Below are positions 35,919 to 37,958 of a stretch of 37,958 nt of DNA, one piece after another. The notes under the pieces were generated by a model. The model had not been told where the DNA came from. It saw only the letters and a program-made list of their open reading frames with translations, and did no database searches. Positions within the stretch are counted from its first letter, which is position 1. Every line of letters begins with the position of its first letter. The translations under genes were made by a program, and so were the position numbers. Source of the stretch: Pseudomonadota bacterium (GTDB lineage Bacteria; Pseudomonadota; Alphaproteobacteria; Rickettsiales; UBA1997); NCBI GenBank assembly GCA_009925685.1, contig RFYG01000003.1, positions 1 to 37,958 of the forward strand. Reading direction: 5' to 3'.

Positions 35919-36022
35919 CAATTTCTCGTTTTTCGGTGAGTTATTTTCTTAAATCCTCTAAAATATTTAGTACGATTTTAATTGTAAAAACCCTAAAATT
36001 ATAATTTTGATTTGAGATTTGA

Positions 36023-36095
36023 GTGGTGCCCGAAAGTGGTGCCCGAAAGTGGTGCCCGAAAGTGGTGCCCGAAAGTGGTGCCCGAAAGTGGTGCC
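36023..36095. repeat. 13-bp tandem repeat (GTGGTGCCCGAAA) x5 plus a partial copy merging into the tRNA-Phe 3' end
   Basis: full copies start at 36023, 36036, 36049, 36062, 36075; partial GTGGTGCC at 36088. Confidence 0.97.
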
Positions 36096-36164
36096 TAGAG
36101 GCGGAATCGAACCACCGACACAAGGATTTTCAGTCCTTTGCTCTACCGACTGAGCTATCTAGGC
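36089..36164 (-). tRNA. tRNA-Phe(GAA)
   Basis: minus strand GCCTAGATAGCTCAGTCGGTAGAGCAAAGGACTGAAAATCCTTGTGTCGGTGGTTCGATTCCGCCTCTAGGCACCA; paired acceptor, D, anticodon and T arms; encoded CCA. Confidence 0.97.
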
Positions 36165-36171
36165 TTAATTA

Positions 36172-36330
36172 TTGAAAACTTTAAGAAAGTTTTCCCCTGA
36201 AGACGTGGGTGAAATTAAAAACCTTAGAGCCAATGGTCTTTCGTATAGAAAGATTGCGGAAAGGTTTAACTGCGCTCACGTAGCCATTTATCAAATCCTT
36301 AAGGGTGGAACCTATCAGGATCTGAGCTAG
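36172..36330 (+). CDS. small phage-type helix-turn-helix protein or truncated HTH domain
   Basis: 52 codons from TTG, below the ORF-track cutoff: MKTLRKFSPEDVGEIKNLRANGLSYRKIAERFNCAHVAIYQILKGGTYQDLS*. Confidence 0.55.
   Translation: MKTLRKFSPEDVGEIKNLRANGLSYRKIAERFNCAHVAIYQILKGGTYQDLS
36174..36194. other. perfect 9-bp inverted repeat at the compositional junction
   Basis: GAAAACTTT-AAG-AAAGTTTTC. Confidence 0.9.
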
Positions 36331-36487
36331 CTATCGATAAACATGTTGGTATTCAGCGTAGGGTTTAGCTGAACCAGGATCTGGAAGATCCGTGGAACAG
36401 TGGGCTTGAGTTTCCTCGGTACCACTGTGGGCCTGGAACTTCCGTCCCATTGAAAAAATTATAGCAACACTTTATCAATCCGGATTA

Positions 36488-36760
36488 TTAAGCTTCCGGA
36501 TTTACCATGACGGGATAATTGTATCCATCGAGCATATTGCCAGCAGAATACATCATTGGGGCCATGGAGCCCATAGCACGGTAAGGATTCACATAACCAT
36601 CTGCAGGTTGCATATCGATACGTGCTGCTTGAATCTCAGGATCGATTGCCCCGCCACCAGCTGCTTTCATAGCCAGCATCGCCCCAGCAGCCTGGGCTTC
36701 TGCTTGTTGCTTACGCTCAGCCGACTTCTTGACGGCCTTTTTAGCTTTAGATTTGTTCAT
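36488..36760 (-). CDS. hypothetical phage-like protein (Ala/Met-rich)
   Basis: 90 aa; lies in the high-GC segment, same strand as the next two ORFs; overlaps the stop of the 36760-37194 ORF by one base. Confidence 0.55.
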   Translation of the reverse strand: MNKSKAKKAVKKSAERKQQAEAQAAGAMLAMKAAGGGAIDPEIQAARIDMQPADGYVNPYRAMGSMAPMMYSAGNMLDGYNYPVMVNPEA

Positions 36761-37194
36761 TAGCGGCGACCTTTTTTCTGAGGCATAGGAGGTTGAATTC
36801 CTAACGGAAGGGGCGGGACGAGCGGCATTGCCCGCATCACCATGTATTGCTCATTGGTGAACGCTAAGTTTTGCGCATTCTCAGCAGCTTTTTGGAACTG
36901 CGGAGCAAGCAAACCATTTCGAGGAAGTGGGGATCCGGGCAGGTTCAATTTGAGGTACGCCGAATCAAGATCCTGGGGCATTTTGGGTTGCGGCGCGTTT
37001 GGATCACCAATAACCGGAGCAGTCGCTGCGCGAATCGCAGCATACTCATCCATATTCCCAGATTGAAGTTGACGGGCAGTATCCCCCGCACCAAACATCA
37101 CAAGTCCGGGAGCGCCAATAGGACCACCAGCAGTCCCGAAATTAGCGAGAAACTGAGCGGCTCTATCCCCAGCACTTGCTTTTTTTGATGCCAT
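36760..37194 (-). CDS. hypothetical phage-like protein
   Basis: 144 aa, Pro/Gln/Met-rich, preceded by an intrinsic terminator. Confidence 0.6.
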   Translation of the reverse strand: MASKKASAGDRAAQFLANFGTAGGPIGAPGLVMFGAGDTARQLQSGNMDEYAAIRAATAPVIGDPNAPQPKMPQDLDSAYLKLNLPGSPLPRNGLLAPQFQKAAENAQNLAFTNEQYMVMRAMPLVPPLPLGIQPPMPQKKGRR

Positions 37195-37211
37195 AACAAA
37201 TCCTTTTTAAA

Positions 37212-37239
37212 TAAAAAGGGGCAGCGTTTGCTACCCCTT
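37212..37239 (-). terminator. rho-independent terminator
   Basis: minus strand AAGGGGTAGC-AAAC-GCTGCCCCTTTTTAT: 10-bp stem with one G-U pair, then U tract. Confidence 0.8.
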
Positions 37240-37275
37240 ATTCTACGTTTAGTTAATTTGTTCAAAAACAGACGA

Positions 37276-37298
37276 ATAATCGGATTTTTTCCGATTAT
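37276..37298 (-). other. hairpin at the stop codon of the last ORF
   Basis: ATAATCGGA-TTTTT-TCCGATTAT, 9-bp perfect stem. Confidence 0.7.
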
Positions 37299-37958
37299 CA
37301 CTCCATAACCAGGAGCTTCTGGCGGAACACTTCAGGATTCTGCTGAGCGGCGTTCAGATAGCGCCAGGCGTTGGAGGGATCGCGCTCGGCCAGGGAGCCG
37401 AAGCTGTTCCAGAAATCGATGGGGTTACCCTGAGCCTGGGGCTGAGGGGGAACCGGCATCTCGGGACGTTGAGGAGCAACGGGACGCTGGAATTGCTGAC
37501 CAACTGCCTGAACCTGCTGGGGAGCGGCGTAACCGATCTCTTCATCGGGAATCGGATAGGGGCCGTTCTCACCGAAGAACTCACAGGTGTAATCAGCAAG
37601 CACGTCTGGATCAGTCAGGATGGTCTCATAAGCTTTGTGCTCATTCGAGAGTTCCTGAAGCAGGTTGACGGCTTCGATCAGCTGGTTGTTGGTGGTGATC
37701 AGAGCATCTTCCAGTTGGCAAGCGTAGTTATTGAGGATCGCCGGAACATCGGGACCGAAATGATCAATAACCTCAAGACTTGCTTCGCTTACCCCGTTTG
37801 CTCGGAGCTGCTGGGGGCTGATTTCCAGCGAAGTTTGGGAAGAGCCGTTGGAGTAAGCCTGGCTGTTGTTGATCCCAGGCATAGAGGTCGGCATCCCCGC
37901 GTTGCTGTACTGGGGAGCCTGCTGGGAAGCGTAGCTGGCCGGGTCGATTTGAGGGCTC
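37298..37958 (-). CDS. phage-like protein, possibly scaffolding/virion-associated; 5' end runs off the window
   Basis: ORF track starts at 37894, but the frame stays open to the window edge (SPQIDPASYASQQAPQYSNAG upstream); Pro/Gln-rich with a helical middle. Confidence 0.6.
   Translation of the reverse strand, partial: SPQIDPASYASQQAPQYSNAGMPTSMPGINNSQAYSNGSSQTSLEISPQQLRANGVSEASLEVIDHFGPDVPAILNNYACQLEDALITTNNQLIEAVNLLQELSNEHKAYETILTDPDVLADYTCEFFGENGPYPIPDEEIGYAAPQQVQAVGQQFQRPVAPQRPEMPVPPQPQAQGNPIDFWNSFGSLAERDPSNAWRYLNAAQQNPEVFRQKLLVME

Follow-up and report, generated by a model that had tools for sequence, protein, structure and literature searches.

Cyanophage DNA beside the tRNA-Phe gene of a bacterial contig: a probable chimeric join rather than an integration

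The DNA analysed here, called the window throughout, is a stretch of 37,958 bases that ends where contig C94 of a 1.45-Mb, 181-contig bacterial assembly (G000) ends; nothing lies beyond it that could be searched for a second att site. Close to that end bacterial sequence gives way to phage-like DNA directly beside the 5' end of a tRNA-Phe gene, and the locus raises the question of how the two came to be neighbours. A sequence-only reading had left three options: an unusual integration, a chimeric join, or a co-assembled phage contig. The comparisons described below strongly favour a chimeric or misassembled join and disfavour integration; judged from its sequence, the contig is very probably a chimera in which host chromosome was misjoined to a cyanophage fragment. 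The features around and beyond the junction are as follows.

36089-36164, minus strand: tRNA-Phe (GAA), the last host gene left whole ahead of the junction (ARAGORN; Rfam tRNA, 72.2 bits)
36165-36179, minus strand: putative host tRNA-Phe 5' leader, from comparison with relatives
36174-36194, no strand: inverted repeat GAAAACTTT-AAG-AAAGTTTTC, which encodes K-T-L-R-K-F-S in the HNH gene
36174-36332, minus strand: 5' portion of the group I intron that interrupts the phage major head protein gene, with site and sequence as in phage loci L047 and L055
36175-36330, plus strand: 3' end of an HNH endonuclease gene (51 codons and stop, C-terminal helix-turn-helix), truncated by the join
36333-36344, minus strand: phage major head protein gene, exon 1 (ATGTTTATCGAT)
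36488-36760, minus strand: phage ORF of 90 aa, with a near-identical ORF in L006 and L003
36760-37194, minus strand: phage ORF of 144 aa, with a near-identical ORF in L006
37298-37958, minus strand: phage ORF broken off where the contig stops, 219 aa present; aa identity is 98-99% with IMG/VR sequences and 37% with S-EIV1
37782-37958, minus strand: C-terminal 59 aa of a virion structural ORF (head and packaging) that overlaps the preceding one and is likewise cut by the contig end

The change at about 36,174 is abrupt and real as sequence. Base composition shifts from about 34% to about 48% GC across the boundary, alignments of host relatives run through the tRNA-Phe gene (96-100% identical in these genomes) and stop at 36164-36177, and alignments of cyanophage contigs begin at 36174 or 36175 and run onward. 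Because host alignments stop where cyanophage alignments start, a change of origin at the junction is confirmed, and with it the earlier description of an abrupt bacterial-to-phage-like transition at the 5' end of a minus-strand tRNA-Phe gene that faces foreign DNA. On the other side of the gene, a 13-bp unit (GAAAGTGGTGCCC) is present in about five tandem copies at 36022-36095; the array extends into the 3' end of tRNA-Phe, whose last bases it repeats, and two adjoining units gave no exact-pattern match in 10 related genomes.

The 1,785-bp tail (36174-37958) is DNA of a freshwater cyanophage resembling Synechococcus phage S-EIV1. Neither the tail DNA, searched against phage records, nor query P0001 in the phage search gave a match, and the relatives came from IMG/VR, where 80 loci fetched with the tail's last ORF were compared with the tail by BLAST. 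The highest nucleotide identity found was to L006 (95% over 1.5 kb). The tail's genes are homologous to those of S-EIV1-like phages and stand in the same order, the order being that of the IMG/VR relatives; with S-EIV1 itself one ORF was matched. The L006 full-length homologue of the ORF at 37782-37958 matches PHROG 20475 (7.9e-209), and the contig ends within this and a second, overlapping phage ORF. At the opposite end, eleven IMG/VR loci align from the very first bases of the tail, that is, from within one phage gene.

That gene is an HNH endonuclease gene of about 201 codons in the relatives, whose frame continues upstream for about 150 codons that are absent from the window. The remaining 51-codon fragment has 71-73% aa identity to the C-termini of HNH ORFs at 11 loci (L045-L047, L049-L053, L055, L061 and L063); used as the sole query, the fragment retrieved one weak relative, and a full-length relative matches Pfam HNH_3 (6.4e-11). 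In the relatives the whole HNH gene lies antisense within a group I intron that interrupts the major head protein gene after codon 4. L006, which is intronless, reads ATGTTTATTGATAACGAC across the insertion site, and the intact product of its head gene hits PHROG 1357 (major head protein) at 1.5e-16. The intron 5' sequence, AGCTA(A/G)CTCAGATCCTGATAGG, and the insertion site are the same in the window as in L047 and L055, two loci whose inserts match Rfam RF00028 in their distal part. A group I ribozyme core at this site was thus found in phage relatives (93.1 bits in L047, 99.4 in L055, 103.6 in L061, 102.4 in L067 and 92.7 in L043); RF00028 had no match in the window, which holds the intron 5' part alone, the core having been lost with the cut at the join. 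The intron coordinates are 11601-12410 in L047 and 11643-12452 in L055, with introns also in L061, L043 and L067, and the corresponding stretch of the window is 36174-36344. The inserts of L043 and L067 are shorter (about 270 and about 230 nt) and lack an HNH ORF. By pattern scan, the insertion site is intronless in 51 loci and carries an insert in 13. The fragment probably comes from an S-EIV1-like phage in which a group I intron bearing an antisense HNH gene interrupts the major head protein gene behind the fourth codon. Since the join cuts a phage gene together with its intron, it does not lie at a phage genome end.

The same comparison disposes of the inverted repeat. The sequence-only reading had reported a perfect repeat, and the match is exact at 36174-36194. 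Hairpins with 9-bp arms in the window number 13, counted with overlaps, while 20 shuffles gave 4.7 on average, which makes the repeat only slightly out of the ordinary as a hairpin. It is accounted for as part of the coding region of the phage HNH gene, the same codons reading GAAAACATTAAGAAAGTTTTC or AAAAACTTTAAGAAAATTTTC in phage relatives; it is incidental to the join, and the earlier idea that it marks the joining mechanism is not supported. Nor does it connect the junction with multiple displacement amplification (MDA), a palindrome at the junction not being a signature of MDA chimeras (PMC1855051). As a terminator the repeat was rejected for want of a terminator-like site, and as an att site because it is phage coding sequence. 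Neither the exact repeat nor the tRNA-leader pattern was found in IMG/VR.

What should follow the tRNA-Phe gene on the host side can be read from relatives, in which, unlike the window, the locus continues with an AT-rich region, ccmE and parB. The order in genome G009 is ABC-transporter ATPase, tRNA-Phe, ccmE, parB, and G004 and G006 have the same order up to ccmE. (Between ccmE and parB of G009, at about 1370-2100 of L103, lies a repeat-like stretch, some of it matching several G000 contigs.) In G000 parB is on another contig, C131, which ends 317 bp upstream of the gene; this facing end is host-like and has no phage match. No ccmE was found in G000, while the same search matched 8 of 10 related genomes; taken alone this is weak evidence, because ccmE was likewise not found in two draft relatives, G003 and G005. 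The AT-rich stretch directly upstream of tRNA-Phe is common to four relatives, is missing from the window, and presumably holds the tRNA promoter. A simple consensus scan marks no promoter in this region of the window, and it marks none next to tRNA-Phe on its strand in G009 either. The search of G000 found one tRNA-Phe-like gene, a second weak match on C98 being a tRNA-Lys. On the favoured reading, the absence of the upstream region from the window is a product of the misjoin.

The searches made found no other piece of this phage in the assembly. When about 20 kb of phage sequence (about 10 kb on one side of the matched part and 8 kb on the other) was searched for in G000, only this tail was found, and no relative of phage ORF P0002 was found in 82 related genomes. 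Among GTDB genome contigs, relatives of this cyanophage ORF were found on just two, both of one Bacteroidetes MAG (L132, QQUU01000104.1; L133, QQUU01000043.1); these contigs may be misbinned phage.

Unrelated sources on the two sides, a breakpoint within a gene, and host synteny resuming on another contig were therefore all found, and the gene cut mid-way, the host synteny, the missing ccmE, the host-like end of the parB contig and the lack of phage elsewhere, by the searches made, together favour a chimera, which accounts for them most simply. Host chromosome would run to just past the tRNA-Phe 5' end, and from 36174 an arbitrary 1,785-bp piece of an S-EIV1-like cyanophage, broken within genes at both ends, would follow. 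The two would have been joined in amplification, library making or assembly, and the real continuation of the host (the AT-rich tRNA upstream region, ccmE, and the parB now on C131) would have been lost at the break. The leader reads AAATGTTGAAACC or AAATATTGTAACC in relatives and TTAATTATTGAAAAC in the window, and its end, GAAA(AC), overlaps the start of phage homology; this may be a microhomology of 4-6 bp at the join and would suit a template switch. Like the microhomology, the kind of artefact is something we infer: an assembler misjoin would usually need an overlap of more than 4-6 bp, and amplification, ligation and assembly are all candidate causes.

End joining in a living cell would fit a few bases held in common at the join, and illegitimate recombination could then have left a cyanophage fragment in the chromosome as a genuine transfer made without an integrase. 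Such an event is very improbable here: the only cultured relative of the phage infects a cyanobacterium, the fragment is still running where the contig stops, the contig end on the parB side is host-like, and the conserved tRNA upstream region has been removed. Least probable of all, if by a little, is that site-specific recombination put a real prophage or a phage remnant upstream of tRNA-Phe, for although tRNA genes are a common integration neighbourhood and the junction lies about 10 bp from one, it is on the 5' rather than the 3' side of the tRNA, its left boundary falls within an HNH gene in a phage intron instead of at an attachment site and no right boundary is reached before the contig stops, no integrase is among the few ORFs of a tail that, at 1.8 kb, is too short for a whole phage, no phage match is found on the facing end of C131, elsewhere in the assembly or in the 82 relatives, and the insertion would have cost the only tRNA-Phe-like gene found in G000 its conserved upstream region.

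Conclusions about the tRNA-Phe neighbourhood and its upstream region should not be drawn from this contig, whose last 1.8 kb needs to be removed before any link between bacterium and cyanophage is inferred. More generally, a cut gene in the foreign part and the synteny of the native part can separate misjoin from integration without reads. On the phage side, related phages that are intronless, that have the intron without the endonuclease ORF, or that have both make gain and loss of intron and endonuclease testable in one lineage.

The virus lineage, chimeric joins, and cyanophage group I introns with HNH endonucleases are all already known. In MDA, chimeras arise when a displaced 3' end anneals to a short complementary sequence; short complementarity is common at the junctions, and most chimeras are inversions with deletions (PMC1855051). 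The present join is alike in linking two unrelated segments, possibly at a short shared sequence, and intermolecular joins do occur, whereas the chimeras described mostly arise inside a single genome, as local inversions with deletions (PMC1855051). Group I introns with HNH endonucleases are known in cyanophages (PMC3428280), antisense endonuclease genes within group I introns in myxomycete rDNA (PMC9548176), and in T4 a free-standing endonuclease gene on the opposite strand beside the major capsid gene (PMC2988022). No report of an antisense HNH gene in a head-gene intron was seen among the search results listed from the cyanophage and intron literature, and this does not prove that none exists. 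A close parallel, I-PfoP3I of phage Pf-WMP3 (PMC3428280), is likewise an HNH endonuclease with a cyanophage group I intron, but that intron lies in the DNA polymerase gene; here the major head protein gene is the one interrupted, and the ORF for the putative HNH endonuclease lies on the antisense strand. S-EIV1 (KJ410740), the sole cultured relative found, shares 37% aa identity in one tail ORF, and its IMG/VR relatives agree in tail ORFs and gene order, with identities reaching 99% (aa) and 95% (nt); unlike these phages, the window holds a 1.8-kb piece alone, cut short at either end and attached to bacterial DNA.
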